This document shows, piece after piece, positions 1 through 31,161 of a stretch of 33,402 nucleotides of DNA. The DNA comes from a virus. Both the position numbers and the translations under genes were made by a program. The stretch's first letter is position 1. Every line of letters begins with the position of its first letter. Location: positions 1 through 33,402 of the IMG/VR virus record IMGVR_UViG_3300030117_004916; one strand, given 5' to 3'. The notes under the pieces are model-generated. The model was not told the origin of the DNA and searched no databases. It saw only the letters and a list, made by a program, of their open reading frames with translations.

Positions 1-12
1 GGGGTGGGAGTC

Positions 13-101
13 GATTAGATTAGATTGATTAGATTGATTGGATTGGATTGATTGGATTAGATTGATTGGATTGGATTGATTGGATTGGATTGATTGGATT
101 G
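13..101. repeat. GATTR tandem repeat with 14-bp period
   Basis: The stretch is built only of GATTA, GATTG and GATT words. The dominant higher-order unit is GATTG-GATTG-GATT (14 bp), repeated about six times with A/G variation in the fifth base. It lies just upstream of the first early promoter and has no coding content. It could be an iteron-like protein-binding array or upstream promoter DNA. Because it touches the window edge, a collapsed or expanded assembly repeat cannot be excluded. Confidence 0.85.
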
Positions 102-131
102 CAAAAAATTGATTGGCCCTACACTTAGCAC

Positions 132-160
132 TTGACATGTCACATTCGCTGCCGTATATT
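132..160 (+). promoter_or_regulatory. Left early sigma70-type promoter
   Basis: A perfect -35 TTGACA (132-137), a 17-nt spacer and a -10 TATATT (155-160) precede the first gene. Predicted +1 is near 167, exactly where the AATAGG hairpin begins. The matching promoter at the other end of the window (33364-33336) has the same -35, the same spacer length and the same hairpin downstream. Confidence 0.85.
133..142. promoter_or_regulatory. Palindromic operator TGACATGTCA over the -35 box
   Basis: TGACATGTCA is a perfect 10-bp palindrome overlapping the -35 hexamer. The identical palindrome overlaps the -35 of the right early promoter (33354-33363). A near copy (TTACATGTCA) lies near 30460. It is a candidate site for a phage repressor, for example the XRE protein at 1924-2121; that link is inference. 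Confidence 0.55.
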
Positions 161-165
161 GGAGG

Positions 166-189
166 TGTCGAGGGAATAGGCCCCCGACA
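166..189 (+). promoter_or_regulatory. AATAGG-loop hairpin, site 1 (5' end of left early transcript)
   Basis: The arms TGTCGAGGG and CCCCCGACA enclose the six-base loop AATAGG (175-180). There is one internal A.C mismatch, also found in the site at 33305-33328. The hairpin starts at the predicted transcript +1 and is followed by the GGGAG ribosome site of the first gene. Confidence 0.75.
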
Positions 190-208
190 GAATAGGGAGA
201 GTGGAACA

Positions 209-409
209 ATGGATTGTCACGCATGCCACGCAGAAATAGAGGGCGAGGGCGTCAAGGTCGAGGAGTTGACCTTGTGCGAGGGGTGTTTCGAGGACGGAGT
301 GGGGGACAATATTGGTGGGCGGGTATTCCCCGCGCTATTTGAAAACGATGGGACGCCCAAGGGGTGGGATTTTCACACACAGTTTCGCACAACAGGGGGG
401 GCATACTAA
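209..409 (+). CDS. Zinc-ribbon-like early microprotein
   Basis: This is a 66-residue protein with two CxxC pairs (Cys3/Cys6 and Cys23/Cys26), spaced as in a small treble-clef or zinc ribbon. Its function is unknown. I chose the ATG at 209 because a GGGAG ribosome site lies just upstream and it follows the promoter leader. A longer in-frame reading from 113 would begin upstream of the promoter. It is the first gene of the left early operon, and its stop overlaps the start of the next gene (TAATG). Early small zinc proteins in phages often act on host regulators, but nothing here shows the target. Confidence 0.7.
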   Translation: MDCHACHAEIEGEGVKVEELTLCEGCFEDGVGDNIGGRVFPALFENDGTPKGWDFHTQFRTTGGAY

Positions 410-702
410 TGGCTGTTATCAACACGATAACTTCCCCGCAGGAGTTTGCGGGGGAGTTTGAGCGCATGGGACGGGGAAAACAATTTTCTTGGATTGCCCT
501 TGAGGCATTGTTTAACTGGTTGGACGAATTGCCCGAGCCACACGAATTAGACGTAATTGCGTTGTGCTGCGAGTTTACCGAGTATGTTGACCTTGCCACT
601 TTTAACGAAGAAGAAGGCGAGGCATTCGGCAATATGGAGGATTTGGGCGAGCAGTATTTTGTAATCCCCACAGAGCAACGCAATTTTTTGATCGGACACT
701 AA
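409..702 (+). CDS. Conserved early phage protein (ELDVIALCCEFTEY type)
   Basis: This 97-residue acidic protein carries the motif ELDVIALCCEFTEY in its middle, preceded by SWIALEALFNWLDEL. That pattern recurs in small proteins of unknown function in phages and plasmids. No enzymatic motif is visible. The start at 409 overlaps the stop of the zinc-ribbon gene, so translation is probably coupled. The stop is followed after 8 nt by the AATAGG hairpin at 711-736. An upstream in-frame ATG at 364 lies inside the preceding gene and has no good ribosome site. Confidence 0.75.
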   Translation: MAVINTITSPQEFAGEFERMGRGKQFSWIALEALFNWLDELPEPHELDVIALCCEFTEYVDLATFNEEEGEAFGNMEDLGEQYFVIPTEQRNFLIGH

Positions 703-710
703 CACACACC

Positions 711-736
711 GCGCCGGGGGAATAGGCCCCCGGCGC
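711..736 (+). promoter_or_regulatory. AATAGG-loop hairpin, site 2
   Basis: The arms GCGCCGGGGG (711-720) and CCCCCGGCGC (727-736) are perfectly complementary around AATAGG (721-726). There is no T-tract, so this is not a standard intrinsic terminator. It sits between two early genes and 8 nt before the AAGGAG ribosome site of the next gene. No promoter was seen immediately upstream. Confidence 0.85.
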
Positions 737-756
737 ACCAATTAAGGAGAACTACA

Positions 757-1011
757 ATCAATAACATAAACAGCAGCCCAACCCGATATGAAATCGCTGC
801 AAGGGTAATAGCTCAGCAGAGTGCCGATGAAAAAGGCAACTATCCAGATGTGGCCCGTGAAATTGAAATGGAAATCGCGGGGCTACAGTCTGAGGACTCT
901 CCCTACAGCTATCTCTACGAGGAGCGGCAGTCAGTTGATGGATTGTACATCCGGGAACGAATACAATACCTCAATGAAATGCCAGAAAATTCGTTTTGTA
1001 TTTTTTTGTAA
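757..1011 (+). CDS. Hypothetical early protein with probable AUC start
   Basis: An open frame of 84 codons follows the ribosome site AAGGAG (744-749) at normal spacing, but the codon in start position is ATC. No ATG, GTG or TTG occurs in frame between the previous stop (700-702) and an ATG at about codon 38. The translation is protein-like: it contains TRYEIAARVIAQQSADEKG and later IRERIQYLNEMP. No family or function is recognised. The frame equals that of the upstream gene, so readthrough of its TAA across the hairpin is an alternative; a sequencing error (ATG read as ATC) is another. The stop lies within an inverted repeat (GCCAGAAA 981-988, TTTCTGGC 1015-1022). Confidence 0.55.
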   Translation: MNNINSSPTRYEIAARVIAQQSADEKGNYPDVAREIEMEIAGLQSEDSPYSYLYEERQSVDGLYIRERIQYLNEMPENSFCIFL

Positions 1012-1032
1012 AAATTTCTGGCGAAACCTTAG

Positions 1033-1072
1033 TGCAAGTCAGAGACGTACAGAGCAGACTTGCTCTCTTGCA
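1033..1072 (+). promoter_or_regulatory. Possible leader stem-loops
   Basis: TGCAAG (1033-1038) pairs with CTTGCA (1067-1072). Inside it AGAGCA and TGCTCT pair around GACT (1051-1066). The element lies in the 97-nt gap before the gene at 1109. It has no U-tract and its role is unknown. Confidence 0.3.
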
Positions 1073-1108
1073 ACCACTTTTAAACACGGACTCATAAGGA
1101 GGCCCACT

Positions 1109-1486
1109 ATGGACGCGCACGACTTACAAGAAATTTTCCGTCATATTGAGGGCGCAAAGCAATATATCTTGATTATGGACGACGGGGACCATACCCGTTG
1201 TTATATGAAGGGGGGTGATTTGGATTACGCTTATATGTTGTCGGGGTTATTTGACGAACACCCCCACGTGTACGAGTTGTTACATGCGGTGAATCAAGCG
1301 CACGCTTTACGCAATAAAATGGCGCAGGAGATTGGCGAAGACGAGGCAGACCGCGCCATCGCGGTCTTATTTCGCGCTATGTACGGGGACGCCCTTGAGG
1401 GCAGAGACAGGGGCGAGGACGCGAACGCTAAATCAGCCCACACTATGGAGGATATGTTGCGGGAATTAGGACTAGATAACAAATAG
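1109..1486 (+). CDS. Hypothetical acidic early protein
   Basis: This 125-residue acidic protein starts at an ATG with a strong AAGGAGG ribosome site (1097-1103). The open frame extends upstream to 821 but that part overlaps the preceding gene and lacks a start signal. It has a mixed N-terminal half (QYILIMDDGDHTRCYMKGG) and a helical C-terminal half ending EDMLRELGLDNK. I recognise no domain. An intrinsic terminator follows at 1591-1629. Confidence 0.75.
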   Translation: MDAHDLQEIFRHIEGAKQYILIMDDGDHTRCYMKGGDLDYAYMLSGLFDEHPHVYELLHAVNQAHALRNKMAQEIGEDEADRAIAVLFRAMYGDALEGRDRGEDANAKSAHTMEDMLRELGLDNK

Positions 1487-1590
1487 GAGTGTTGGCAATA
1501 CAACTATTCTTACAGAGTCAGGGCACTCGGGGGAGAGCCTTGGGCGGTGCGTGTAACATGTTGCGCGGAACTCGCCGCGTAGCGCATCGC

Positions 1591-1629
1591 ACCCCCGCGA
1601 CTTGGGAGAGTTGCGGGGGTCTCTTTTTT
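1591..1629 (+). terminator. Intrinsic terminator inside left early operon
   Basis: The arms ACCCCCGCGAC (1591-1601) and GTTGCGGGGGT (1610-1620) pair with one G.U, around an 8-nt loop, followed by CTCTTTTTT. It separates the first four early genes from the regulator and replication genes. The 104 nt between 1487 and 1590 hold no gene I can support; they contain a CGCGG/CCGCG hairpin. Confidence 0.8.
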
Positions 1630-1648
1630 CATTATAGAGAGATTAAGC

Positions 1649-1927
1649 ATGAGAGTAATTTTTGATTTCCAGCCGGCAACAACAGACGCCGATTGGATTG
1701 TCTCCGCTGAGGTTAGCGCCGGGGCGGGGGCGTCAGCGCGTCCCGTTGTTATTGGCGGGAGCATTGCTGAGGTAACATATGACCCCGGCTACGCTGCGGA
1801 GGTGGAGATTGACCGGGTTGTTATGTATCGGCCCGACAGCTATACAGAGATTGAGATTGAGGACATCGAAGACAAGGACTTCAAAAGGATTAGGGCGTTG
1901 GCTATTGAGGAGGCAAACCAGATATGA
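1649..1927 (+). CDS. Hypothetical early protein
   Basis: This 92-residue acidic protein begins 20 nt after the terminator T-tract, with only a weak ribosome site (GAGAG). It looks mainly beta-rich at the N-terminus (RVIFDFQPATTDADWIVSAE) and ends in a charged helix. No domain is recognised. Its stop overlaps the ATG of the XRE regulator (ATGA), so the two are likely translated together and this may be an accessory to that regulator. Confidence 0.65.
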   Translation: MRVIFDFQPATTDADWIVSAEVSAGAGASARPVVIGGSIAEVTYDPGYAAEVEIDRVVMYRPDSYTEIEIEDIEDKDFKRIRALAIEEANQI

Positions 1928-2121
1928 AGGGTCAGAAGATTAGATTGATACGCGAGGCACTTGGGGAAACACAGGTGCAGTTTGCCGCTCGATTGGGCGT
2001 GCAATGGATTACGGTGAGCCGTTGGGAGCGAGGGCTGAACAAGCCAAGCAGTTTGGTTCTTGACGCAATACGCGACGCCGAAGCCGCCGCAAAGCTGGTC
2101 ATTTTTTCAACAGCGGACTAA
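1924..2121 (+). CDS. XRE/Cro-like HTH transcription regulator
   Basis: This 65-residue protein is almost entirely a lambda-repressor-type helix-turn-helix: GETQVQFAARLGVQWITVSR spans the two core helices, followed by WERGLNKPS as in XRE family members. It lacks a C-terminal oligomerisation or cleavage domain, so it resembles Cro or small plasmid regulators. It is coupled to the upstream gene by ATGA. The palindromic TGACATGTCA sites over the two outer early promoters are plausible targets, but this is inference. Confidence 0.85.
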   Translation: MKGQKIRLIREALGETQVQFAARLGVQWITVSRWERGLNKPSSLVLDAIRDAEAAAKLVIFSTAD

Positions 2122-2143
2122 CGAGGATTAAGCGGGATTAAAT

Positions 2144-2155
2144 GGGCCTATTCCC
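2144..2155 (-). promoter_or_regulatory. Antisense copy of GGGAATAGGCCC core
   Basis: The 12-bp core GGGAATAGGCCC of the AATAGG hairpins occurs here on the - strand, opposite to the local genes. The stem is only 3 bp (GGG/CCC), so it may be a remnant or half of a protein-binding pair with site 3. Confidence 0.35.
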
Positions 2156-2184
2156 TTGCATTGTGCCCTATTAGTTGCTATATT
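2156..2184 (+). promoter_or_regulatory. Middle-left early promoter
   Basis: TTGCAT (2156-2161), a 17-nt spacer and TATATT (2179-2184) form a sigma70-like promoter. The -10 is identical to that of the first early promoter. Predicted +1 is near 2191, coinciding with the start of the third AATAGG hairpin. Confidence 0.65.
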
Positions 2185-2188
2185 AGAA

Positions 2189-2220
2189 ATCCCCCCGGTG
2201 GAATAGGCCACCGGGGGGAT
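2189..2220 (+). promoter_or_regulatory. AATAGG-loop hairpin, site 3
   Basis: The arms ATCCCCCCGGTGG (2189-2201) and CCACCGGGGGGAT (2208-2220) form a perfect 13-bp stem around AATAGG. The stem sequence differs from the other sites, including T-A closing changes next to the loop (TGG/CCA in place of GGG/CCC), while the loop is unchanged. The AAGGAG of the next gene follows 21 nt downstream. Confidence 0.85.
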
Positions 2221-2255
2221 TGCTCACCACCAGACTTGCACAAGGAGTATAGCAA

Positions 2256-2414
2256 GTGATAAACGAAAATATACGTCAGGATTTCGCAAAACGCAACCCC
2301 ATTCGTTGCACTCGCTCCCGCACCTCGCGGGGCGATTACATCGGTTGGGGTATTATTTTTTTTAGTGTTGCTTATTTCGGGTGGCACATTATCCGCAGTC
2401 CACTATTTCAATAA
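2256..2414 (+). CDS. Small single-pass membrane protein (GTG start)
   Basis: This 52-residue frame begins at GTG with the ribosome site AAGGAG at 2242-2247 (8-nt spacing) and ends at TAA 2412-2414, next to the ribosome site of the following gene. Residues 1-27 are polar and basic; residues 28-46 (YIGWGIIFFSVAYFGWHII) form one predicted transmembrane helix. Its place directly behind its own promoter and AATAGG hairpin suggests strong early expression. Function is unknown; an early inner-membrane effector such as an exclusion or host-takeover protein is possible. Confidence 0.65.
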   Translation: MINENIRQDFAKRNPIRCTRSRTSRGDYIGWGIIFFSVAYFGWHIIRSPLFQ

Positions 2415-2425
2415 GGAGGATTATC

Positions 2426-3157
2426 ATGCCGCAGATCAAAATCGGGGAAACGGTGCAGTTCACCGTGGGGGCATTTAATAGCGTGTCGAGAAATCCGTCT
2501 TCTCAGGCTCCCGGCACGTGGTACTACAGCATTAAGGGCGGGTTTGTCGGCGGGGACAAATTACAGGGGACCGCCCATATGTTATGGGCAATGTTACCCG
2601 CGTGGCCGGGAGCCGGGGGGCAGTTAGAGATTACCCGCACTGGCCCGATGGATTTTACTGCAAGCACCACGGCTCCCGGCGATGGGGTGCCGCCGAAATT
2701 AGAGGAATACAACGCAGCGGGGCGCAGCTTCGCAACTATACTCCCCGCTATTAGTAATACTGAGCAGGTGCCGCACGAAATTGACGGCACAGGCCCCGCC
2801 CTTGCGACGGGTGCCGCTGCGCCGATTAGTCCCGCTACACCTACCGCTAACAATACTACTAACACCGCGCTCCGTCCCGATGGATACGACCTGCAAACTT
2901 TGGGGGATCTTGCAGAGCAGTGCATGATAAGGGCCAGTGGGATTATGGAGCGGTTTGCGGAGGCCGGGTGGGAGGTGAACACCGGGACGGCGATTAGTTT
3001 AGGGCAATCCATGTTCAACGCCGCGCAACGGTTGGGTGTTATGCCCGAAGAGGCCGGGGCCACGCCGCCCGATCAGACGGGAGGGGCCGCAGGGCAACAA
3101 CAAGAGCCAGATGTGTTTGACGAGGCATTGGCCGCCGCTCAGGGAGTGTTTAAATGA
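2426..3157 (+). CDS. Possible OB-fold ssDNA-binding or replication accessory protein
   Basis: This 243-residue protein has a beta-rich N-terminal part with WYYSIKGGF, DKLQGTAHMLWAMLP and ITRTG (residues about 1-80), a Pro/Thr/Ala-rich linker (about 100-150), and a helical C-terminal region with LGDLAEQCMIRASGIMERF and SLGQSMFNAAQRLGV. The layout recalls phage OB-fold ssDNA-binding proteins with a C-terminal helical tail, but I cannot name a family. The ATG follows AAGGAGG at ideal spacing; an in-frame ATG at 2381 lies within the preceding small gene. It overlaps the next gene by ATGA and stands among DNA-metabolism genes. Confidence 0.6.
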   Translation: MPQIKIGETVQFTVGAFNSVSRNPSSQAPGTWYYSIKGGFVGGDKLQGTAHMLWAMLPAWPGAGGQLEITRTGPMDFTASTTAPGDGVPPKLEEYNAAGRSFATILPAISNTEQVPHEIDGTGPALATGAAAPISPATPTANNTTNTALRPDGYDLQTLGDLAEQCMIRASGIMERFAEAGWEVNTGTAISLGQSMFNAAQRLGVMPEEAGATPPDQTGGAAGQQQEPDVFDEALAAAQGVFK

Positions 3158-3360
3158 GCAATGTCAGCGAAGAGCGCGAGTGGGTGAGCGTAGCTGAAGC
3201 CGCGCAATTGTGTGGCCTCAGCTACGACACTATGCGAGGGTTAATAACACAGGGCGCGATACCAAGTCGGCGCATTGGTCAGCGCAAGATTAGATTGCGC
3301 CGCAAAGATGTTATGGAGATGTTACTTGGCCGCGAAGACGAAGCAGACACTACGCATTGA
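3154..3360 (+). CDS. Excisionase-like / MerR-type winged HTH protein
   Basis: This 68-residue protein matches the helix-turn-helix 17 / excisionase pattern: EWVSVAEAAQLCGLSYDTMR, then GLITQGAIPSRRIGQRKIRL. The family binds DNA as directionality factors or small regulators. No integrase is present in the window, so an excision role is doubtful and transcription control is more likely. It is coupled to the upstream gene by ATGA, and its 3' end overlaps the RusA-like gene. Confidence 0.8.
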   Translation: MSNVSEEREWVSVAEAAQLCGLSYDTMRGLITQGAIPSRRIGQRKIRLRRKDVMEMLLGREDEADTTH

Positions 3361-3706
3361 CGGGGATTGGCCCGCGATGAATGCGTCGATTAGACGCATG
3401 AAGGGCCATTGGTCTGGATATGCCAAGGAGAAGAGGGATTGGACTCAGCGCGTATGGGCCGAAGCTAAGGCGCAGGGATTGCGCCCCATGCCGACACCTA
3501 TACGCGCTGAGTTTACGTGGCGCATGCCTAACATGAAGAGAGATCCCGATGGATTGCGTGGGTTTGTTGTGAAATATATACTGGATGGTCTTGTTAAAGC
3601 GGGTGTGATACCCGACGACAATGCCACGCACATCGTGGGCTTTTCCGACACCTTCAGATTGGACCGGGACAATCCCGGCATTGACGTTGTGTTGCTGTCA
3701 TGCTGA
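3326..3706 (+). CDS. RusA-family Holliday junction resolvase
   Basis: The protein (about 126 residues) resembles phage RusA endonucleases: an N-terminal strand RIDGDWPAMNASI, then acidic residues in RDPDGLRGFVV and the conserved LDGLVKAGVIPDDN, where Asp residues bind the metal. RusA proteins cleave branched DNA during recombination and before packaging. I favour the TTG at 3326 because GGAG (3315-3318) lies 7 nt upstream and the first strand is kept whole; an ATG at 3377 would cut that strand, and ATGs at 3275 or 3308 lack a better ribosome site. It overlaps the methyltransferase start. Confidence 0.8.
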   Translation: MAAKTKQTLRIDGDWPAMNASIRRMKGHWSGYAKEKRDWTQRVWAEAKAQGLRPMPTPIRAEFTWRMPNMKRDPDGLRGFVVKYILDGLVKAGVIPDDNATHIVGFSDTFRLDRDNPGIDVVLLSC

Positions 3707-5100
3707 GTGTGGGGTCGTTGTTTGCGGGGATTGGCGGCTTTGATTTGGGCTTTACTGCTTGCGGTTATAATATAGCATGGCAGGTGGAGCGTGACCCATG
3801 GTGCCGCCGCGTCTTAGCCAAGCATTGGCCTAATGTGCCCCGCTTCAGCGAAATTGAAGAAGTTGGACGCCACAACCTATCGCGGGTTGATGTTATTTGT
3901 GGCGGCTTTCCGTGTCAGGACATCTCCTTGGCGCGGCCCGTAAAGGGGAAAGGATTGGATGGTGAACGCTCCAGTTTGTGGTGGGAAATGTATAGAGTTG
4001 TTAGCGAGCTACGACCCCTCTACGTTGTCGTGGAGAACGTGCCCAACCTGCTCAACGAAGGAATCGACAGAATTTGTGGGGCTTTGGCCGAGATCGGGTA
4101 TGATGCGGAGTGGCATGTTATATCGGCAGAGGACGTTGGTGCCCCACACACACGCAAGCGTATCTGGATTATATCCTACCCCCACCGTAAGTATGGGACG
4201 CAATGCAACATTGACCCGCAAGGACACCTCGACCATCGCATTGGGGCACACACTATACGACATGGCGCACTTGGCGGGTGGGAAGCTGAACCCCCTGCTT
4301 TGCGAATATCTGATGGGGTTCCCAATCGGGTGGACCGACTTAGGGGATTAGGCAACAGCCTTTCGCCGCACATTGCGCTAACATTAGCCAAGCTCATAAA
4401 GGAGGATTATAACCGACACATGAAAATTATAATCGAAGTGGAAATCAACACCAAAGTTGTTACATCCGAAGAGGAACAAGGTGCAACAACGGGCGTAACA
4501 ACGGGCGCAACAGGGAGTCAGGAGATCGTTTTGGTTCCTGTCGTAGAACAAGAGGACGAGGTACCTAAGACTAGTACTAGTACTAAGAACTTAGATACTA
4601 CTAAGGAGTACTTGGATAGCGAACAGGAAATTGTTACACCTCCAGAGGTTGTTACATCTAACGGTCATATCCCTCACGCTACTTGTAAGGAGGCGGGATG
4701 CGATGCGCCGGTGAGTCGCAAGGGCTTGTGCAATGCCCATTACATGCAACAGCGCCGCAAACAATACGAACCCAGTTTGCAGGCGCTATCTTGTTTTGAG
4801 CGTTGGCGTAAGCACCCTGAGATCGATTATAAGAGCCGCTACAAGGATCACTGGTGCAAGGTTTTTGACGACCTTCACCGCATCGACAGGGTGCCGTGGG
4901 ACGAGATTAGAGCGATCTCAGAGTTTGCCAGCAAACAGTGGGTGCCGCGTTTCATGCAAAGCCCCACAAAGCTACGCCAGCCGTCCAAGGCATATCCCGA
5001 AAAAAAATGTTGGGAGATTATTCAATCACAAATGAAAGGAGAGTTGACTAATGACCCAAGCGATGCAGGGGCTTTCGTCGATGACATCGACTTCAGCTAA
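3700..5100 (+). CDS. C5 DNA methyltransferase fused to phage replication protein
   Basis: One open frame of 466 codons holds two proteins. Residues 1-235 form a compact cytosine-C5 methyltransferase: motif I LFAGIGGFDLG (8-18), catalytic PCQ (71-73), ENV (112-114), HTRKRIW (150-156) and GLGNSLSP (217-224). The target-recognition region is very short. Residues 241-466 have a Thr/Ser/Glu-rich linker, a zinc knuckle (Cys329, Cys334, Cys344, His347) and a C-terminal part with SKQWVPRFMQSPTKLR that resembles the end of phage O-like replication proteins. There is no stop between them, but AAAGGAGG at 4398-4405 precedes an in-frame ATG at 4420, so a separate replication protein may also be made. The methylated sequence cannot be told. 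Confidence 0.85.
   Translation: MLSVGSLFAGIGGFDLGFTACGYNIAWQVERDPWCRRVLAKHWPNVPRFSEIEEVGRHNLSRVDVICGGFPCQDISLARPVKGKGLDGERSSLWWEMYRVVSELRPLYVVVENVPNLLNEGIDRICGALAEIGYDAEWHVISAEDVGAPHTRKRIWIISYPHRKYGTQCNIDPQGHLDHRIGAHTIRHGALGGWEAEPPALRISDGVPNRVDRLRGLGNSLSPHIALTLAKLIKEDYNRHMKIIIEVEINTKVVTSEEEQGATTGVTTGATGSQEIVLVPVVEQEDEVPKTSTSTKNLDTTKEYLDSEQEIVTPPEVVTSNGHIPHATCKEAGCDAPVSRKGLCNAHYMQQRRKQYEPSLQALSCFERWRKHPEIDYKSRYKDHWCKVFDDLHRIDRVPWDEIRAISEFASKQWVPRFMQSPTKLRQPSKAYPEKKCWEIIQSQMKGELTNDPSDAGAFVDDIDFS
3959..4351 (+). CDS. Overlapping alternative-frame ORF inside methyltransferase
   Basis: In the +1-shifted frame over the methyltransferase lies a 130-codon frame containing ASYDPSTLSWRT, WPRSGMMRSGMLYR, LVPHTHASVSGLYPTPTV and GGKLNPLLCEYLMGFPIGWT. 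From memory this pattern (SGLLPTPTA ... LNP.WVEWLMGFPIGWTDL) recurs in proteins often annotated beside or within phage cytosine methyltransferases, apparently arising from this frame of the gene. Whether it is translated here is unknown; the catalytic motifs belong to the other frame. No convincing ribosome site was seen. Confidence 0.3.
   Translation: MVNAPVCGGKCIELLASYDPSTLSWRTCPTCSTKESTEFVGLWPRSGMMRSGMLYRQRTLVPHTHASVSGLYPTPTVSMGRNATLTRKDTSTIALGHTLYDMAHLAGGKLNPLLCEYLMGFPIGWTDLGD
4420..5100 (+). CDS. Internal-start form: O-like replication initiation protein
   Basis: Initiation at the ATG at 4420 would give a 226-residue replication protein without the methyltransferase. The support is the perfect AAAGGAGG at 4398-4405, although its 14-nt spacing is long. 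The product has an N-terminal strand (MKIIIEVEINTK), a disordered acidic linker with repeated nucleotide words, a CxxxxC-x9-CxxH zinc knuckle, and a C-terminal helical region with WRKHPEIDYKSRY and SPTKLRQPSKAYP. O-like proteins bind the origin and recruit the helicase loader; the next gene is a candidate loader. Confidence 0.5.
   Translation: MKIIIEVEINTKVVTSEEEQGATTGVTTGATGSQEIVLVPVVEQEDEVPKTSTSTKNLDTTKEYLDSEQEIVTPPEVVTSNGHIPHATCKEAGCDAPVSRKGLCNAHYMQQRRKQYEPSLQALSCFERWRKHPEIDYKSRYKDHWCKVFDDLHRIDRVPWDEIRAISEFASKQWVPRFMQSPTKLRQPSKAYPEKKCWEIIQSQMKGELTNDPSDAGAFVDDIDFS
4564..4660. repeat. CTAG/CTTAG-rich repeat in replication gene linker (candidate origin)
   Basis: The linker DNA holds CCTAAGACTAG (4564-4574), ACTAGTACTAGTACT (4570-4584), CTTAG/CTAAG words and repeated GTTGTTACATC (also near 4456). 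The first two and the TTGTTAC word recur in the intergenic region at 29750-30470. Lambda-type phages carry their origin iterons inside the O gene, so this is a plausible origin; unproven. Confidence 0.4.
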
Positions 5101-5656
5101 ACGAGGTAGTGGCAACAAGCTCTCTCAGGAGGGTTTTAAAGCGGGCATTAAGGTTTTGATGGCCGAGTATAGTTGGAAGCCCGACGAGGAGCAACTACGG
5201 CAATGGTATCGCACATTGGGTTGGATTTCCGATGATGCGTGGATGAACGCCATCGACAACTGGCTGTTAGGCGATAGTGAGTGGAGACCTAAGCCGGGGC
5301 AGCTACTCAAAATGGCGCAGCAGACCACGCCACGCGAACAGGCCATGAAGGAGCAGCAAAAGAAGGAGGAAGCTGCACGCAAGCGGGAAGAGGACCGCAA
5401 TGTTAAACCTGTTACACGCAACTGGCCCAAAATTCTTAGGGACGAGGAACAGATGTCGCATCAGGTGCGCCGGGCCATTTTGGGGCATTTGGGAATAACA
5501 CGAAAAACGCCGGGCGCTATTCAGATTGTCATGGATACAATACACATGATGACGATGGAGCAGGCGATGGTATTAGAGTACGACGATCCCGTGGCTGCGG
5601 CATTGCCGATAGCTGAAAAGCTGTATAAGAAACAGCAGAAGAGCGAGGAAAAATGA
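5051..5656 (+). CDS. Probable helicase-loader-like replication protein
   Basis: This 201-residue protein begins at an ATG with AAAGGAGA upstream and overlaps the end of the replication gene by 50 nt. Residues about 35-90 contain WKPDEEQLRQWYRTLGWISD and WLLGDSEWRPKPGQLLKM. The Trp/Pro pattern (tyrosine-rich helices, then a 'kWxPtpgdll' strand) is like the N-terminal domain of phage helicase loaders and related primosome proteins. A Lys/Glu/Arg-rich coiled segment follows (about 95-125). The C-terminal half is helical. Function is inferred from this pattern and from position behind the O-like protein. Confidence 0.55.
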   Translation: MTQAMQGLSSMTSTSAKRGSGNKLSQEGFKAGIKVLMAEYSWKPDEEQLRQWYRTLGWISDDAWMNAIDNWLLGDSEWRPKPGQLLKMAQQTTPREQAMKEQQKKEEAARKREEDRNVKPVTRNWPKILRDEEQMSHQVRRAILGHLGITRKTPGAIQIVMDTIHMMTMEQAMVLEYDDPVAAALPIAEKLYKKQQKSEEK

Positions 5657-6081
5657 AAAAGCCCGTACAGAGGCCCAAGCCAAGGGCCATTGACAACCCC
5701 TATGCTTCCACCACTACGGTGGGGACATCTCCGCCCATAACAGACCAGTTAGAACTGAGCTTGGGTAAGGGCGTAGTGCTGCGAGAGCAGGGGATGAACT
5801 TAGCAGCGATGAATAACAAAGAGAAGTTGGATATAGCGCGGGAAGTGGCCGTAGAGATTGCACAGGAAAAGGGCGAGGTGACTTCAGACGATGTTAGATA
5901 CCACCTCAACCTCAAGCCCAGCGATAGGCGCGACAGCCAAAATTGGATGGGGTCCATCTTCCGCGATAGGCGTTTTTCATATACAGGACGCCGCATAAAG
6001 AGCAAGATTGCCCGCAATCATGCCGCCGAGATAAAGGTATGGTGCCTTAACATAGAGGAAATAAACGCACATGCCACATAA
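5653..6081 (+). CDS. Winged-helix-like phage protein
   Basis: This 142-residue protein ends in a domain with EVTSDDVRYHLN, WMGSIFRDRRFSYTGRRIKS, NHAAEIKVWCL. The same order (vTsDDVr, G.iFR, yTGr..S.....H.r.i.vW.l) is common in small phage proteins thought to carry a winged helix. It is likely a DNA-binding accessory to replication. The start overlaps the preceding stop by ATGA. It is the last gene before the convergent terminator. Confidence 0.65.
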   Translation: MKKPVQRPKPRAIDNPYASTTTVGTSPPITDQLELSLGKGVVLREQGMNLAAMNNKEKLDIAREVAVEIAQEKGEVTSDDVRYHLNLKPSDRRDSQNWMGSIFRDRRFSYTGRRIKSKIARNHAAEIKVWCLNIEEINAHAT

Positions 6082-6134
6082 AAAAATTGCAGCCCTCGAC
6101 AAAGAATAATTTTTTACAGAAAGCCCATGACAAG

Positions 6135-6173
6135 CAAAAGTCCTTCGGACATTAAATGTCCGAAAGACTTTTG
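6135..6173. terminator. Bidirectional terminator between convergent operons
   Basis: Arms of 18 nt (6135-6152 and 6156-6173) pair around TAA with one C.A mismatch on the + strand (a G.U pair on the - strand). The ends are CAAAAG and CTTTTG, so both strands have a T-run after the stem. It lies where the + early operon meets the - late operon. Confidence 0.85.
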
Positions 6174-6206
6174 TGTTTATTGCTTATATGATCAGAAACA
6201 CAACTG

Positions 6207-6380
6207 TTAGTTGTTAGCATCGACGTAAGCCTGCCCCAGCACATACGCGCAGGCTATCGCTGCCATAGGCCACGTTACGTCAACGACGCCAGTAGACGCC
6301 GCCGCGCCAGCCGCAACCGTAACTGCTAATTTTCTGCTAACAACCTTATTTGTTACCGTCTTAAGAAGATTCTGTATCAT
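6207..6380 (-). CDS. Small membrane protein, holin-like candidate
   Basis: The ATG at 6380 (GGGAGG upstream) gives 57 residues: an amphipathic start, then VTVAAGAAASTGVV and WPMAAIACAYVLGQAYVDAN, which form one long or two short transmembrane helices. Similar 'WP..aia.aYvlgQa.vDa' proteins lie at the end of phage late operons. Holin activity is only a guess. An ATG at 6431 would add a Cys-rich stretch without a ribosome site. It overlaps the upstream gene by 20 nt. Confidence 0.65.
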   Translation of the reverse strand: MIQNLLKTVTNKVVSRKLAVTVAAGAAASTGVVDVTWPMAAIACAYVLGQAYVDANN

Positions 6381-6567
6381 TGGAGCCTCCCTCGTTGTCA
6401 GACAATTCTTGCAAAAGCTCCTGCATACCAATTAAATAACCGTGTTGACGATTATACATTTCGCGTGCTGCTTGCATTTGCTCCGCTGCGGTGCTGTGTG
6501 CTTGTTGCGCTTTTTTCATTTCATTTTGAATGTTAGCTATTTTTTCTTCTAAAGTTGCAATGTTCAC
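6361..6567 (-). CDS. Small coiled-coil protein (GTG start)
   Basis: The 68-residue product begins at GTG with GAGGAA upstream. Residues 5-58 are helical with heptad spacing (LEEKIANIQNEMKKAQQ, then AAEQMQAAREM), followed by an acidic tail. It lies between two membrane protein genes late in the operon. A spanin-like or minor virion role is possible, but it has no signal peptide or transmembrane segment. Confidence 0.7.
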   Translation of the reverse strand: MNIATLEEKIANIQNEMKKAQQAHSTAAEQMQAAREMYNRQHGYLIGMQELLQELSDNEGGSNDTESS

Positions 6568-6569
6568 GG

Positions 6570-6953
6570 CTATTCCTCTACGGGGGCTAAGGTGTCAAGG
6601 GGGACTTCGATTCGCATGCTTTTAAGCTCAGAGTTAGGAACCTTAAGCAATGTGCCACTAACAATTTTTCCATCTACTATATCATACAAGTAAAAAGTAG
6701 TAGCCATTATCGACGTTTTGGATATGCGTGCAGGTCGCCGGGTTCCGTTTGTATGAACATAACAAACCATGTTTTCATTGTATTCGGACCCTATGAACAT
6801 GGCTATCCCAGCCAAGGCGTTGGTCACAGATTCTTTCACAAACAGAAGGGCGAATCCGGCAGCGAATAGCCATATATATTGCTCTAACAACAAAGCCAAT
6901 CCCGATTGTTGCCCAAATTGCCGCAACGCTTCTTCTGTTGCTGCTTCGTCCAT
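6570..6953 (-). CDS. Membrane protein with MscS-like pore/beta domain
   Basis: This 127-residue protein has a helix at 25-42 (QYIWLFAAGFALLFVK), then VTNALAGIAMFIGSEYNEN, then a beta stretch with PARISKTSIMATTFYL, DGKIVSGTLLKVPNSELKSM. The order resembles the core of MscS channels: pore helix, glycine/alanine-rich turn, then a beta domain with 'V..I....T.l....g....vPNs.l'. It lacks the first two MscS helices. Whether it forms a channel is unknown; its position beside holin-like genes makes a lysis or osmotic role worth considering. Confidence 0.5.
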   Translation of the reverse strand: MDEAATEEALRQFGQQSGLALLLEQYIWLFAAGFALLFVKESVTNALAGIAMFIGSEYNENMVCYVHTNGTRRPARISKTSIMATTFYLYDIVDGKIVSGTLLKVPNSELKSMRIEVPLDTLAPVEE

Positions 6954-6982
6954 TCATAAAACGCTTTCGTGTAAATTGCTTG

Positions 6983-7393
6983 TTATTCAAGTGGGCGCAT
7001 GGCCCACGCTAAAGTGCTGCCGATTAAAACTTGTATTACACCAATTGTAGCTTCGTGTTCAAAGACAGGCGTCCATCGTCCCCACCCTCCAGCAACTTCA
7101 ACTACTTGATATGCAATAATTAGAATCGTCGCTGCCGTACTAGCGTAAGCTGCACTTGACTTTTCTTTTGCTTTAGCATGTTCCTTTTTGGTGAGTGTAA
7201 CTACTTCCGCATGAGCTTTTTTAACTTCTGCTTTAGCTGACCGAGCCTCTTGCGTACGCGCTCGTGCCACACTAGTAGCGGCTCCGCGCATACGCCTACA
7301 TTCGTCAAGCTCTTTCCAAAGTTGTGCGTAATGCTGTCGTAGTTCTGCAAAGCTGCCCACGCTCTTGGGATCGCGTGGTGGTTTTCCTAACAT
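6983..7393 (-). CDS. Coiled-coil membrane protein near lysis genes
   Basis: This 136-residue protein starts 1 nt after the tail-fibre stop. Residues 15-80 are charged and helical, with an Ala/Lys/Glu-rich coiled coil (ARSAKAEVKKAHAEVVTLTK). Two hydrophobic segments follow: ASTAATILIIAYQVVEV (about 86-102) and IGVIQVLIGSTLAWAM (about 117-132). The layout is not a known family to me. A virion-associated or lysis protein is possible. Confidence 0.65.
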   Translation of the reverse strand: MLGKPPRDPKSVGSFAELRQHYAQLWKELDECRRMRGAATSVARARTQEARSAKAEVKKAHAEVVTLTKKEHAKAKEKSSAAYASTAATILIIAYQVVEVAGGWGRWTPVFEHEATIGVIQVLIGSTLAWAMRPLE

Positions 7394-7394
7394 G

Positions 7395-10256
7395 TTAAGC
7401 TGCTTCTAAAGCCGCAATCTTGGTTTCAGCGGTTTCAAGACGCGCTTGCAATTCTTGGATTACCTTCAATCCGATCTGATTTAGGATTGAATATTTAACG
7501 GATTTAGTAGTAGTGCCTAAATCAACGTCTTTTTCTTCTGTTTCACCCGTATCGTTGCCTTCGTTATCTAAAATTGGCACTTCTTGACGCTGAGTATCTG
7601 GTGATTCAGAAACAAGATTTGGAAAAATGGTTTCTATTTCTTGGGCGACAACGCCAAGCATACTCTGTGCATTATCGCCGTATTCCGTTACGTCATGTTT
7701 AAATTTAAATTTGCGAAATTTAACTTGAGCAAAATCGTCCCAGTAACTTCGTGCGTCGGTAATATCTTGCTTGAGTTTAGAATCAGAATCCGCGCCGTAC
7801 GAGTTAGCCCGACTTGTAAAACTACCGTCTGAGTAAATAAACGCTTTAGTCTGAGTTGACGATTCGCATTTAAGGAAAAATACAGTTGTATTATTTGGGT
7901 TACCGCCTGAGCCGTGCAGGTATAATCCGTAAGGTGTAGATGATGTGCTGTTAGTGATCGTAGTGAATCCATTTGCATCAATGGAAAAACGCTCAACAGC
8001 ACCATTTGAGTTGATAAGAAATTTATTGTTAGAATTTTGATAGATAAGTGCAGCGCCTTCATCCTCACCATTCGCGTTCGTTAGCGACAGTTTCATTTGG
8101 CCGCTACTAGAGCCAGTAGTGCCAGTGCTGTAGATCGTCATACCTGCATTGAGGCCATCATTAAGGACAAAACCATCAGCCGAAGCTGAAACCGTTGCAG
8201 CAGCACCGAACTCCAATTTAGATCCATCATATCTTAGGTTGGCCTCGCCGCTCAGCGTACCACTGCCCGTGGCTGTTGTTAGGCGGCCATCGGCATCGTT
8301 AGCGAGTAGGGCTGTGCCACCGATTGTCAGAGCATCGGTTTCAAGTGTACCGTCGATGTCTACATTGCCGCTGAAGTCGCCCGTAGCGGCGTCGAGTTCT
8401 CCTGAAAGTGTGAGGTTGGCAAATCCCGTAGCGTTGTTAGAGTCGTCAATCGTAACACCGCTGTTTTGTCCTGTTTTGCCGCCTGTGCCGGTAAATCGCA
8501 CGATAGCATTGTCGGTGCTACTGCCCGGACCACTAAAATCGCCACTACCACTGACAGACCCCCAGCTTGGGATAGTTCCATTAGTCGTTAGCACCTGTCC
8601 GTTGCTACCCACGCCCAATCGCGCTAAAAAACCGCTGCTGTTGCGGTAATAAATATCGCCAGTAGCATCACTGCCTACAGCTAAACCAAAGTTTGTTAGT
8701 ATAAGGTCGTCAGCAGAGGCATCGACTAACACACTGCTACCGTCGGTATCACCAAAAAATTTAACATCATAGCCCGTGTCATTGACGCCTACTGTTACCG
8801 TAGCGTCTATTTGCACGGCCCCGTCAATGTCTACGGCATCAAGATTAGCTGTGCCGTCAATGTCTGCATCTCCACTTATGTCAAGTGTGGCCGCATCTAA
8901 TTCGCCTGTTAGTGTGACGTTTCTAAACGAGGCGATGTCCTTGTTGGCGTCAACTACAAGGCCTTTGCTTGCTGTAACCGTTCCCGCTGTTACGCCATCT
9001 AACACGTTAAGCTCGGTGGCGGTAGCAGATAAAGCCGTAGACCCTAATGTAAGTTGTCCATCGGGGACAATTAGGCCCGCAGCGCCACTAAATATTAAAT
9101 CATCAGCGGAGGTGTCCCATGTTATATTAGCAGATGCGGTGTCACCATACAAGATTACATCATAACCTTGATCATTAGCGCCAACCGTAATCGTTGCATC
9201 TACCTGCATGGCAGCATTTATATCAAGGGCTTGGTCAAACTTAATGGCTTCGCTGGAATTTGTAGTAACAAAAGTCATGTAGGCATTGTCAGCTTCTTCA
9301 ATTACCAACGCCGCCGCACTATTGTCTAATACTTTAATGCTACTGGCCGCAGAAAACTGCAATGCACCATCGGCCCCAGCCGAAAGAGTCAAATCTCCAG
9401 CTATGTCTACGGCTCCTGAAAAATCGCCAGTAGCTGCATCCAACTCACCCGTCAGCGTTAGGTTGCGAAACGACCCAATATCTTTGTTAGAGTCAACAAC
9501 TACGGCTTTGCTGGCAGCAACGGTGCCTGCCGTAACGCCATCTATTGTTTCTAATTCAGCCTCGTTTATTACCGCAGACCCTATTGTCAAGCCACCTACG
9601 GTAGCTACACCAGTAATCCCTGCTGTTCCCGCTACTGTTAGCCCGCCTGCCAGAGCCAGCGTTGAACTGGCAACCGTTGCGTTAGGTGTTAGAGTTAGAT
9701 GCGTAACATAAGTGCCAGCGGAAGCTATGTCGTTGCCAAGTGTTAGGGTGCCACCATCGGCTATGCTAAGTTTCCATTCATCTCCGGCGTCGTCGCCCTG
9801 ATCTGACTTGAGAACAATGCCAAGTGCGGCCCCTTCGACGGCAGCGGCAATCTCCAAAGCGTTGTTAGTCGTTTCGTCATACTGAAGACTAATGTCTTGG
9901 TCGGAGCCAAGGTAAATTTTCTTATCATCAGCCACATAAACGTCGCCCCACTCTAATGTGGCGCTTCCCAAGTCAGCGCCACCAGAGGCGTCGGGCAAAA
10001 ACGTCGTGCCAATTTTAAGGGAGCCGCTGATGGTTAGGTTGCGAATCTGATTGCTGCTGGAGGTATCGGCAAAATCTTTGTTAGAGTCCAAAACCACCGC
10101 TTTGGAAGCCGCCGCTTGACCAGCGGTAACGCCTAAGTTGTCAGCATTTAGGCTTCCGTTTGCCGTAGAAAGTATGTTGTCAAACTCGCCATTTAAACTC
10201 GACGCAGTAAGCGTGTCGCCCGTAGACCATGTAGTTTGCCTGCTAATAGTACCCAT
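7395..10256 (-). CDS. Tail fibre with C-terminal S74 intramolecular chaperone
   Basis: This 953-residue protein begins with a short virion-binding region and then has repeated beta modules, each with words such as LTLTGELDAATGDFSG, TELNVLDGVTAGTVTASKG and VDGT. The last about 130 residues form the S74 peptidase/chaperone domain: SDSKLKQDI (near 824) with the presumed cleavage serine, FRKFKFK, MLGVVAQEIETIFPNLV and a C-terminal coiled coil. In this family the domain assembles the trimer and is then cut off. The protein should bind the host surface. Module repeats may allow recombination of host-range segments. Confidence 0.9.
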   Translation of the reverse strand: MGTISRQTTWSTGDTLTASSLNGEFDNILSTANGSLNADNLGVTAGQAAASKAVVLDSNKDFADTSSSNQIRNLTISGSLKIGTTFLPDASGGADLGSATLEWGDVYVADDKKIYLGSDQDISLQYDETTNNALEIAAAVEGAALGIVLKSDQGDDAGDEWKLSIADGGTLTLGNDIASAGTYVTHLTLTPNATVASSTLALAGGLTVAGTAGITGVATVGGLTIGSAVINEAELETIDGVTAGTVAASKAVVVDSNKDIGSFRNLTLTGELDAATGDFSGAVDIAGDLTLSAGADGALQFSAASSIKVLDNSAAALVIEEADNAYMTFVTTNSSEAIKFDQALDINAAMQVDATITVGANDQGYDVILYGDTASANITWDTSADDLIFSGAAGLIVPDGQLTLGSTALSATATELNVLDGVTAGTVTASKGLVVDANKDIASFRNVTLTGELDAATLDISGDADIDGTANLDAVDIDGAVQIDATVTVGVNDTGYDVKFFGDTDGSSVLVDASADDLILTNFGLAVGSDATGDIYYRNSSGFLARLGVGSNGQVLTTNGTIPSWGSVSGSGDFSGPGSSTDNAIVRFTGTGGKTGQNSGVTIDDSNNATGFANLTLSGELDAATGDFSGNVDIDGTLETDALTIGGTALLANDADGRLTTATGSGTLSGEANLRYDGSKLEFGAAATVSASADGFVLNDGLNAGMTIYSTGTTGSSSGQMKLSLTNANGEDEGAALIYQNSNNKFLINSNGAVERFSIDANGFTTITNSTSSTPYGLYLHGSGGNPNNTTVFFLKCESSTQTKAFIYSDGSFTSRANSYGADSDSKLKQDITDARSYWDDFAQVKFRKFKFKHDVTEYGDNAQSMLGVVAQEIETIFPNLVSESPDTQRQEVPILDNEGNDTGETEEKDVDLGTTTKSVKYSILNQIGLKVIQELQARLETAETKIAALEAA

Positions 10257-10261
10257 GTATT

Positions 10262-12421
10262 TTACCTTTGCCCTTTTTCTTCTTCTTGCAATCTTTCTAT
10301 AAATTGACCCAAGGTCATACCCGTTTTAGCAAGGTCTTGCACGGTGTCATTGCCAAGGATTTCTCTTGCTTGTCTTGCATATCTTATGTAAGCCCTTGCT
10401 TGCCGCTGGGCTTCTTGCTGTGCTTGTGGGCCGCGCCCAAGCGCCCGCATAAAAGCAGGGCTATTAGCAATTCTATTAGATATGGCTAACATAGCACGCG
10501 GGGAATAGGCTGCAAGTAGGGGTACGCCAGCTAAAACCGTCAATCCCGTACCCATTATTCCACCCGTTAGAATGCCACCCCCCAATAACGTACCTGCCGC
10601 AGTTAGCTTTTTGCTCAGGTCTGCTTTTACAACCAAGCCTGTGCCAAACGATCTTGAACTCATTGCGCCAAGTATTTGCTGAATGCCTGTCTTGCTAACA
10701 AGTCGCTCAAGGTCTTTTACGCCCTCTTCAGTTTCCATTTGTTTGGCGAGCCTGTCTGATGAGGCATTTGTAACAACCCCTTTTTCTATGTCGTTGCCAT
10801 AGGTAGCTCGCACCTGATCTAATTTTTCTTGAGAGTCTCTGTATTCTTGCCGTATTTGCCTAAAGGCGTCTGCATCGGCCTTCTTGCCAACATCTTCAAG
10901 GTGTTGTTGCACTGCGCCCGTAGTGGCACTATGGAGCCGCCCTACTAAGGCGTCACGAACTCTTGCATCTCGCTCTTTCAATGGATTTTCTTGGACAAAA
11001 CGAAAGTCTTTATTTATAAGGTCTTCTATGGGCAACGATGGGTTGTCATTGAAATCGCTGGGAAGTAGGTTTTTGCGTATATGATTTCGCACAGTCGCAC
11101 GTTCGGAGTCAGAGAGGGGCGATGCCGTGCCTTGGGGGGACACAAACTCTACATCATATTCATATTTTTGTCCCGGCAGCGTTCGCAGTGCGCCTACTGT
11201 TTCGTTATTTAATTCTCGTATTGTTTGCACGCCCTCACCTGCCGCATCTAAGCCTTCATATATGCGACTGCCATCCTCTGCCTCGTCATAGAATTTAACT
11301 ACAATTCGCGCACCAAAACCTTCTTCGCCCCCGCTCATTGCTTCGTTAAGCACCTGATTTATGCGATAGGGCAATGTCGCATTGTCTCTCAAGTCCGTGG
11401 ATATTGTTTCTTGGACATTTGGTATAGCGCCTTCCGTCTTTGGCTTGCCATGAAAAAAGTCGTAGCGTGCGGCTCCGTATTTTTTAGACGCATTCTTTTG
11501 TATTTGCCCTATGCTCGCCCTCAGTCTTTCATGGACAGCTTTGAGCGCCCTTTTTGGCCTGTCAGCCGCAGCCAACATTACATTATATTTTTGCGGATCG
11601 CCAACATGCTTGTAAAGCTCCCTAACAGCATTGTCTGGTATTGAAGTTAAAAAACTTTGGACAAAATCTGCTATTATAGACCGCTTATTGCGGCCCGGTG
11701 GTGCCATTTCCTCTGTTAGTTTTTTAAACTTTCCTCGGGTAGACTTTGGCTTGACCTTGGTTTTTTTAGCCCGACGTTGTTGTAGGTAATCAACGACTTT
11801 GGGCCGTAGGTAATCAACAGCATCCTTGGCTTTGCTTGGAACTCCAATCATGGGATCGGCTACAACATCTGCAACTTGTATGCCCTTGGTGCGACCCACT
11901 CGTCCTAATCGTTCGCCTACTTTTGCCAATGATCCCAGCTTCGGAATTTTGCTTAACGCACCAGCGGCACTTGCACCGCCCGTAAACGGAAGTGCTATGG
12001 CTGATGCTAAATTCATAATTCCTTCGGTGGGATAGCCACTAACAATGTCTTCCGGCAAATCAACAACCGACTCCACAAACTCTTCTCCCACCTGGCGAGC
12101 AAGCCTCGTGTCCTCGTCTTCGTCGGTTCCCACGGCCAGCTTTGCGACCCCTGTCCCCAAAGAAACCAGTGGCTTTACGCCCTTTTCGATGGGGGAAAAT
12201 AAAACGTCTCCAAACTGCCCCGGTATTTCTTCGAGGCCCATTGCACCGCCCTCGCCTTCTTCTTCGCCATAATACAGGCGTGACAGAAAGCCTCTTTCTT
12301 CGTCTTTCTCTGCCGTAGAAGCGCGAAACCTTCGCAGCTTGTCTTGCGCCGACAGGCGTTTGGTGCCGCCGCTAGCTCGACTTCTAAAGGCTTGTAATTT
12401 TTGCTTGGCTGTTAGTGCCAT
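10262..12421 (-). CDS. Internal virion / DNA-ejection protein A
   Basis: This 719-residue protein has a basic N-terminus with a repeated LTAKQKLQAFRSR / LSAQDKLRRFRAS motif, an amphipathic segment near 115-170 rich in Ala and Gly, a basic central region (about 205-240) and helical stretches. Near its C-terminus is a hydrophobic region with LTAAGTLLGGGILTGGIMG and LTVLAGVPLLAAY. Long helical proteins with such glycine-rich hydrophobic patches next to the tail genes are typical of podovirus ejection proteins. I cannot assign it to a family by name. Confidence 0.7.
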   Translation of the reverse strand: MALTAKQKLQAFRSRASGGTKRLSAQDKLRRFRASTAEKDEERGFLSRLYYGEEEGEGGAMGLEEIPGQFGDVLFSPIEKGVKPLVSLGTGVAKLAVGTDEDEDTRLARQVGEEFVESVVDLPEDIVSGYPTEGIMNLASAIALPFTGGASAAGALSKIPKLGSLAKVGERLGRVGRTKGIQVADVVADPMIGVPSKAKDAVDYLRPKVVDYLQQRRAKKTKVKPKSTRGKFKKLTEEMAPPGRNKRSIIADFVQSFLTSIPDNAVRELYKHVGDPQKYNVMLAAADRPKRALKAVHERLRASIGQIQKNASKKYGAARYDFFHGKPKTEGAIPNVQETISTDLRDNATLPYRINQVLNEAMSGGEEGFGARIVVKFYDEAEDGSRIYEGLDAAGEGVQTIRELNNETVGALRTLPGQKYEYDVEFVSPQGTASPLSDSERATVRNHIRKNLLPSDFNDNPSLPIEDLINKDFRFVQENPLKERDARVRDALVGRLHSATTGAVQQHLEDVGKKADADAFRQIRQEYRDSQEKLDQVRATYGNDIEKGVVTNASSDRLAKQMETEEGVKDLERLVSKTGIQQILGAMSSRSFGTGLVVKADLSKKLTAAGTLLGGGILTGGIMGTGLTVLAGVPLLAAYSPRAMLAISNRIANSPAFMRALGRGPQAQQEAQRQARAYIRYARQAREILGNDTVQDLAKTGMTLGQFIERLQEEEKGQR

Positions 12422-12433
12422 ATTGCGCTTCCT

Positions 12434-14680: not shown

Positions 14681-14694
14681 AATATCTGCCTATG

Positions 14695-15078
14695 TTATGG
14701 TGTTATTCTGCTGTAAGGTGAATCGTATGTTAAGCCACCGCCCCCACCCGCGCCACGACGTATAAGACCACGATCTAACAAGCTCGACACTTGACTTTCT
14801 GGCGTGCTGCCGCCTTTTAAGCCATATAGTTGATTGCCCAACGATGCTAAGTTTGCCATTGTACCAAGTATTCGCGCATCTTTTGGCATTGCCGCTTGCC
14901 GCTGCGCGATGCGCGAAGCCTGTTGGCGACGAAGCATCGCAATGGCATTGACTCGTCGTTGTTCTGCCGCTGTTTCTTCGTCTACCCTTCTCTGTGCTTG
15001 CCCTTGGCGATGCCTGCCATACATGTCCGCGCCCTTCTTTATGCCTGACGCGATCAATGCCATGGTTAATGGTTCCAT
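14695..15078 (-). CDS. Small internal virion protein
   Basis: This 127-residue protein starts with a hydrophobic helix (MEPLTMALIASGIKKGADM), followed by a Gln/Arg-rich helical region (RRVDEETAAEQRRVNAIAML) and a Gly-rich C-terminus. The N-terminal 'tmaliasgikkg' pattern is common in small podovirus internal core proteins. GGAGG precedes the ATG. It is placed between two large internal proteins, so a role in the inner core or ejection is likely. Confidence 0.65.
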   Translation of the reverse strand: MEPLTMALIASGIKKGADMYGRHRQGQAQRRVDEETAAEQRRVNAIAMLRRQQASRIAQRQAAMPKDARILGTMANLASLGNQLYGLKGGSTPESQVSSLLDRGLIRRGAGGGGGLTYDSPYSRITP

Positions 15079-15083
15079 GTTAT

Positions 15084-18575: not shown

Positions 18576-18579
18576 ATTG

Positions 18580-21003: not shown

Positions 21004-21423
21004 TTACTGGTGTGCTGTCGATATTTGATCAAGGTCAAACTCACTCAAATTATTGCCATTACCTTCAAGCCACCGATTTTTCCAAATAACAATAGCCTCT
21101 GGTCCGCGTTCGGCTATGCGTGAGGGTGGATCTGGCATAAATTCAGGAGTATGTGTTACTTCGCCAAATGCCTTGACCGTGTTTCGCACTTGCTGGTTGT
21201 TTGCGGTGTTTTTACGGACTCTTGTGTGGGTTTTGTTTAGGTCTAACAATTCGCGCAATTGATCTTTGTCTTCATCCGTAGCATTATTCATAAGCTGAAT
21301 AAACTCAGCCCATTTGTTAGCGGCTGGGGTCGCTGCCTGCAAAGGTTCTGTAGCCAATTCTACGGCTTGTGCATTTTCCGCTTTAGGCGCAGGCGGTAAA
21401 GCAGTTGCTTGCTTTTTGTTCAT
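21004..21423 (-). CDS. Hypothetical structural-region protein
   Basis: This 139-residue protein has an Ala/Pro-rich N-terminus, a helical part with WAEFIQLMNNATDEDKDQLR, and a C-terminal section with PEFMPDPPSRIAERGPEAIV. I do not recognise it. GGAGAAAG precedes the ATG. It is the first gene after the terminator at 21465-21498, so it is likely expressed below the capsid genes. Confidence 0.65.
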   Translation of the reverse strand: MNKKQATALPPAPKAENAQAVELATEPLQAATPAANKWAEFIQLMNNATDEDKDQLRELLDLNKTHTRVRKNTANNQQVRNTVKAFGEVTHTPEFMPDPPSRIAERGPEAIVIWKNRWLEGNGNNLSEFDLDQISTAHQ

Positions 21424-29471: not shown

Positions 29472-29493
29472 ACACTCTATCTCTAACAAAGCA

Positions 29494-29528
29494 GGGGCCT
29501 ACAAAGCCGCCTCGACTCCGCAGGCCCC
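29494..29528 (-). promoter_or_regulatory. Stem-loop in late leader
   Basis: On the - strand GGGGCCT (29528-29522) pairs with AGGCCCC (29500-29494) around a 21-nt loop. It is in the leader between the late promoter and the first late gene and may shield or stabilise the message. Confidence 0.45.
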
Positions 29529-31134: not shown

Positions 31135-31161
31135 TTTCCTATTCTCCCTTGTTAGTGGGGC

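Follow-up and report, generated by a model that had tools for sequence, protein, structure and literature searches.

Early cistrons of the phage genome analyzed here (the window, which is a whole virus record of 33,402 bases) are preceded by hairpins with an AATAGG loop, and the relatives of this phage show compensated changes in the stems while the loop is kept, in agreement with the selected RNA element that had been claimed for the early transcripts. Here, we propose that the hairpin is a selected cis-acting RNA element carried by early cistrons in their 5′ leaders and that its (A)AUAGG loop is read, probably by a phage-encoded factor, to act on translation or mRNA stability; we hold this proposal with moderate confidence. 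The order of the proposed leader would be the hairpin with the invariant (A)AUAGG loop, a short spacer, the Shine–Dalgarno site, and the start codon. No description of this hairpin element was found in the literature. Rfam gave no match above the gathering score in the window and nothing credible in 1–2400 at a relaxed threshold.

AATAGG hairpins and early leaders of the window

The window has two early operons, one rightward (~1–6,080) and one leftward at the right end, with a long leftward late block between them. Both termini of the record lie inside the spacer separating the two divergent early promoters, and the arms are seen joined in the relative G001 (contig IMGVR_UViG_3300025128_000153); sites 1 and 5 therefore head neighboring divergent operons. 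A comparison of bases 1–20,000 with 50,697 phage records gave no close match, and no close cultured relative of the phage was found. All five AATAGG-loop hairpins described in the earlier note are present. They are numbered as sites 1–5 and listed here with the features around them.

132–160, + strand: promoter-like TTGACA-17-TATATT before site 1, 11/12 matches
166–189, + strand: site 1, TGTCGAGGG-AATAGG-CCCCCGACA, 8 pairs in 9 positions with one A·C mismatch, heading the rightward early operon (model, 1e-5)
711–736, + strand: site 2, internal, AATAGG loop on a perfect 10-bp stem, no promoter found
1924–2121, + strand: 65-aa HTH protein, kept in G001, L117, and G003
2144–2155, − strand: sixth GGGAATAGGCCC copy with only a short stem, preceding the site 3 promoter
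2156–2184, + strand: promoter-like TTGCAT-17-TATATT before site 3, 8/12 matches
2188–2221, + strand: site 3, perfect 14-bp stem with AATAGG loop, before 52-aa and 243-aa ORFs
30648–30821, − strand: 57-aa basic ORF of the left early operon, candidate loop reader
31160–31181, − strand: site 4, 7/8 pairs with AATAGG loop, internal
32073–33287, − strand: AAA ATPase ORF behind site 5, the anchor for orthologous sites in relatives
33305–33328, − strand: site 5, CGTCGAGGG-AATAGG-CCCCCGGCG, 8/9 pairs with the same A·C mismatch as site 1, heading the leftward early operon
33336–33364, − strand: promoter-like TTGACA-17-TAGATT before site 5, 10/12 matches

The word AATAGG alone is not enriched in the window (19 found versus 15.9 expected). 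AATAGG hairpins are enriched: 300 dinucleotide shuffles in 1-kb blocks gave none in 295 cases and one in the other 5, and no shuffle had more than three hairpins sharing a 6-nt loop. Folding compared with shuffles gave z scores of −5.3 for site 2 and −5.5 for site 3; sites 1, 4, and 5 fold as drawn, with a strength that is not unusual against shuffles. The TAG in the loop of site 4 is also the stop codon of a 300-aa ORF. The late operon, which had been described as free of the element, contains no AATAGG hairpin of comparable stem length.

The stems of sites 1, 3, and 5 begin 6–7 nt past the −10 box, as expected from the claim that three hairpins start at a predicted +1. Across 11 promoter-coupled sites, the stem begins 4–8 nt past a sigma70-like −10 box, and a promoter score of at least 9/12 is found in 8 of them versus 0.8% of random positions. 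No promoter of comparable quality was found for sites 2 and 4 or for the G001 copy at 9496. The AATAGG reading had been placed on the transcribed strand near a ribosome site; all five sites are so oriented, 17–34 nt before a start codon, with a Shine–Dalgarno site between the hairpin and the start codon. In G001, the distance from the copy before a 48-aa ORF to its start codon is ~54 nt. The ORF behind site 2 (757–1011, + strand; INNINSSPTRYEIAARV...) has a good Shine–Dalgarno site and an apparent unusual ATC start.

The folding of a read-through transcript around site 3 was also considered. Pairing with the upstream GGGCCTATTCCC does not hide site 3, because the local 14-bp hairpin wins in folding. 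Separately, a read-through transcript of 2130–2262 (+ strand) is predicted to pair the Shine–Dalgarno site and GTG start of the 52-aa ORF with the −10 region of the site 3 promoter; the two initiation signals would then be hidden, and transcripts begun at the site 3 promoter would escape.

Several other noncoding features lie in or near the early regions. Between the divergent early promoters, a tandem repeat of the (GGATTG/GATT) type (window, 8–123; L189, 5550–5583; L133, 575–610; G003, ~21195–21260) may serve as an origin or as an array of repressor sites. At 29491–29596 (− strand), a consensus extended −10 promoter is directly followed by a long terminator-like hairpin ahead of the late block, a predicted layout like that of a Q-type late antitermination switch. 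A late promoter of G001 (TTGACA-17-TATTAT; L189, 9120–9165) is so near the ATG of an endolysin-like gene that the predicted transcript is nearly leaderless. A hairpin of the ACTAGTACT type recurs in three phages (window, 30253–30277; L190, 12899; L217, 9865), each time in the noncoding DNA that separates the left early operon from the late promoter.

Stems and loops in related phages

Many marine relatives were found by a terminase search, and the records of G001, L117, L133, and L197 (the last in the contig of L115) reach the early region. Additional searches with the ATPase, a methyltransferase-like ORF, and the 243-aa ORF gave few new contigs and none in bacterial genomes. The ATPases of the relatives are 48–69% identical to that of the window, and G001 and L117 share long stretches at 82–97% identity. 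At the start of the ATPase operon, the hairpin is present in all five phages; ATAGG is kept, and the stems are re-paired as GTCACGG/CCGTGAC, CCATAG/CTATGG, GCCCGGGG/CCCCGGGC, and GGGCAGGAG/CTCTTACCC in G001, L117, L133, and L197, respectively. Because these sites are placed by gene position, they provide the cleaner test, and the compensated substitutions that had been named beforehand as the thing to look for in relatives are found there.

An alignment of 12 hairpins, in which N stands for a missing loop base between loop classes, shows both-sided change in seven of eight pairs; 91.7% of cells pair, a percentage inflated by the fact that the hairpins were partly chosen by pairing. The covariation is 0.650 versus 0.215 in shuffles (0/500 as high), and slid controls gave at most 0.215. 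A covariance model recovers the sites of the clade from 514 kb. The other early operon of G001 and L117 contains additional copies, again with an unchanged loop. In G001, the first two genes of the rightward operon have exchanged places, and a hairpin copy precedes each of them. The (A)ATAGG loop is known from five phages only, and several of the sites are closely related. At the other early promoter of L133, a hairpin with a GTTCA loop is found instead of ATAGG, which counts against a leader element. The fixed loop and the drifting stem suggest that a trans-acting factor reads the loop. A CsrA-type site was rejected, as GGA is absent from the loop region in L117 and L197.

The sixth copy bears on whether the element might act as DNA. 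Its oppositely oriented counterpart is present in G001 and L117, so that three phages have opposite-strand copies in or beside the site 3-type promoter. This also counts against a leader element and would suit an operator bound as duplex DNA by a phage repressor, as would the nearly palindromic core and the HTH gene just upstream. The earlier note had kept a DNA-binding site as an alternative, but a single phage has different palindromic arms at its sites (ATAG, GGGG, and CTGG in L117) around an asymmetric center that is fixed; this pattern is the reverse of an operator and makes this explanation very unlikely. It is further disfavored by the occurrence of G·U pairs, the single orientation of leader sites relative to the gene, and the existence of promoter-less copies. 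Moreover, a separate palindrome, TGACATGTCA, lies over the −35 boxes of both early promoters (133–142 and 33354–33363; TGACTTGTCA in L197) and suits the HTH protein better. From its position, this palindrome is likely an operator, perhaps that of the HTH protein at 1924–2121, which is probably a DNA-binding early regulator and not the hairpin reader.

A wide spread of the element was not supported. When viral contigs were scanned for GGGATAGGCCC before a Shine–Dalgarno site and ATG, hits in unrelated phages had significantly extended stems, but the control loops AGAGG, AGTGG, and ATTGG showed equal or stronger enrichment (22/79 versus 3.3 expected) and cancelled this result. Bacterial genomes showed a weaker form of the extended-stem enrichment before Shine–Dalgarno sites. 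GGG-ATTGG-CCC hairpins before Shine–Dalgarno–ATG are frequent in unrelated phages (e.g., L456, L444, L482, and L455), with extended stems in 15/44 versus 2.2 expected. Hairpins before Shine–Dalgarno sites are thus generic in phages, and the (A)ATAGG element is claimed for this clade alone.

The generic occurrence of such hairpins with any loop is also what would be seen if the hairpin were a 5′-end mRNA stabilizer, slowing host decay without a dedicated reader, with the common loop a relic of copying. The stem within a few nucleotides of the predicted +1 at the promoter-coupled sites agrees with this. In that case, however, the stem should drift no faster than the loop, yet the loop is invariant in five phages, and the promoter-less internal copies would need processing to reach a 5′ end. 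We therefore consider a stabilizer of this kind unlikely. As to the two roles suggested earlier, stabilizer and translational operator, the position of the hairpin fits both as judged from the leaders; stabilization alone leaves the invariant loop and the promoter-less copies unaccounted for.

Loops of other lineages and candidate readers

The reading of the loop by a phage-encoded factor was considered together with other loops in more distant phages. G003, whose terminase is 71% identical, has no (A)ATAGG hairpins; a TAGCAG-loop hairpin lies just past each of the two divergent early promoters and a third is internal, and a stem of at least 5 occurs in only 3 of 14 TAGCAG words, which are these three hairpins. 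Because the G003 sites share a different loop of their own, the factor would probably be phage-encoded and co-diverging. When recurrent loops ahead of Shine–Dalgarno sites were searched for blindly, the loops that stood out in these phages were AATAGG, ATAGG, and TAGCAG; a chance-like recurrence of GGTGG in G009 gives an idea of the background. In the more distant G014 and G015, AATTAA loops recur in the same type of leader; this evidence is weaker, with few copies, AT-rich genomes, and near-identical stems in two G015 copies.

In the same two distant relatives, tRNA-elbow-like minihelices are located upstream of small early genes (L211 of G015, + strand, 24716, 25341, 25682, and 25958; L214 of G014, − strand, 9567, 10403, 11317, and 12126). 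Each minihelix combines an acceptor-like helix with a bulge bearing GG and a T-arm in which the stems vary and the TTCRATT loop is invariant; an AATTAA or ACAAA hairpin and a ACACAAACA spacer often follow. At these loci, ARAGORN found no tRNA and Rfam no family.

A possible reader is encoded in the left early operon as a short ORF rich in Arg and Lys, which in the window is the 57-aa ORF. In several relatives, a basic ORF of 38–67 aa lies behind the 300-aa gene at the end of this operon (MDKKQRLSKRKQLRKARKAERRLQRELERL... in G001). The basic ORFs had no family match in PHROGs, and four of them, including that of the window, had no match in Pfam. Their types differ among phages sharing one loop, which weakens the link to loop reading.

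Basic ORFs in this operon would also suit a nut-like signal, in which the hairpin serves as a boxB and an N-like Arg-rich peptide is brought to RNA polymerase where both divergent early operons start. The hairpins at both operon heads and the basic ORFs are the reasons for retaining this alternative; the small loop of 5–6 nt and one intrinsic terminator within the rightward early operon (1591–1628) are also consistent with it. No boxA-like sequence was seen on inspection of the leaders, where a hairpin starting at the predicted +1 leaves no room for boxA on the 5′ side. Several copies per operon are situated near start codons, and the internal terminators are not conserved, the early operons of G001 and L117 being without a strong internal intrinsic terminator. 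Antitermination of the nut type is thus improbable in our assessment, and it is what is left of the put/nut-like signal suggested earlier, since put has two stem-loops instead of the single hairpin seen here.

Returning to the leader element that we prefer, internal cistrons with their own copy would point to an action on the translation or mRNA stability of each cistron, and the location of these per-cistron copies near start codons argues for such an action over a once-per-operon signal. More speculatively, this marine phage lineage may mark its early cistrons with a lineage-specific loop barcode, (A)AUAGG or UAGCAG, read by a co-diverging Arg-rich peptide of the same early operon, forming an RNA–peptide regulon that acts per cistron and not on the elongating polymerase; we put this forward tentatively, as a possibility we would not bet on. 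If the element acts as proposed, it represents a layer of post-transcriptional control copied over the early cistrons of uncultivated marine phages. The hairpins would also form a natural RNA set in which the constraints on stem and loop are cleanly separated, and, should the reader prove to be a short peptide, RNA–protein co-divergence could be tested directly on the lineage-specific loops.

Comparison with known systems

In the lambda nut system, a small RNA hairpin (boxB) is located at both divergent early operons, and its loop is read by the Arg-rich peptide N, which differs between phages. The hairpins of the window are likewise small and head both divergent early operons, whereas boxA is absent and several copies per operon are found beside start codons. 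For the 5′-terminal stabilizing hairpins found on mRNAs of bacteria and phages, no specific sequence is required in the loop. Our promoter-coupled sites, but not the internal ones, resemble them in having the stem at the predicted 5′ end, and differ in that the loop sequence is fixed.

HK022 put is an RNA of ~70 nt with two stem-loops that requires no trans factor (PMC9378689). It is similar in being an RNA element near the early promoters of both arms, but its architecture rules it out, as every site here is a single hairpin of 17–40 nt. The Start-Associated Sequence (SAS) of cluster K mycobacteriophages precedes non-structural genes with large gaps, mostly in one orientation, and its function is unknown; it is a fixed 13-mer, GGGATAGGAGCCC, placed 3–7 nt before the start codon with the Shine–Dalgarno site inside (PMC3203893). 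Its core, GGGATAGG..CCC, is strikingly similar. In contrast to SAS, the hairpin of the window ends 17–34 nt before the start and has a separate Shine–Dalgarno site, and SAS in Pixie shows no consistent stem past GGG/CCC. The letters are similar and the anatomy is different, and membership in SAS was therefore rejected.

The translational operator of T4 gene 43 is a hairpin near the ribosome site that is read by a phage protein, and its loop bases are the same in T4 and RB69 and different in RB49 (PMC3014915). Of the systems compared here, it offers the nearest precedent for loop-mediated reading of a phage hairpin. The T4 operator serves one gene, autoregulated by DNA polymerase, whereas the element described here precedes many cistrons and has no known polymerase-like reader; in both systems, the loop bases are conserved among relatives and different in a more distant one.
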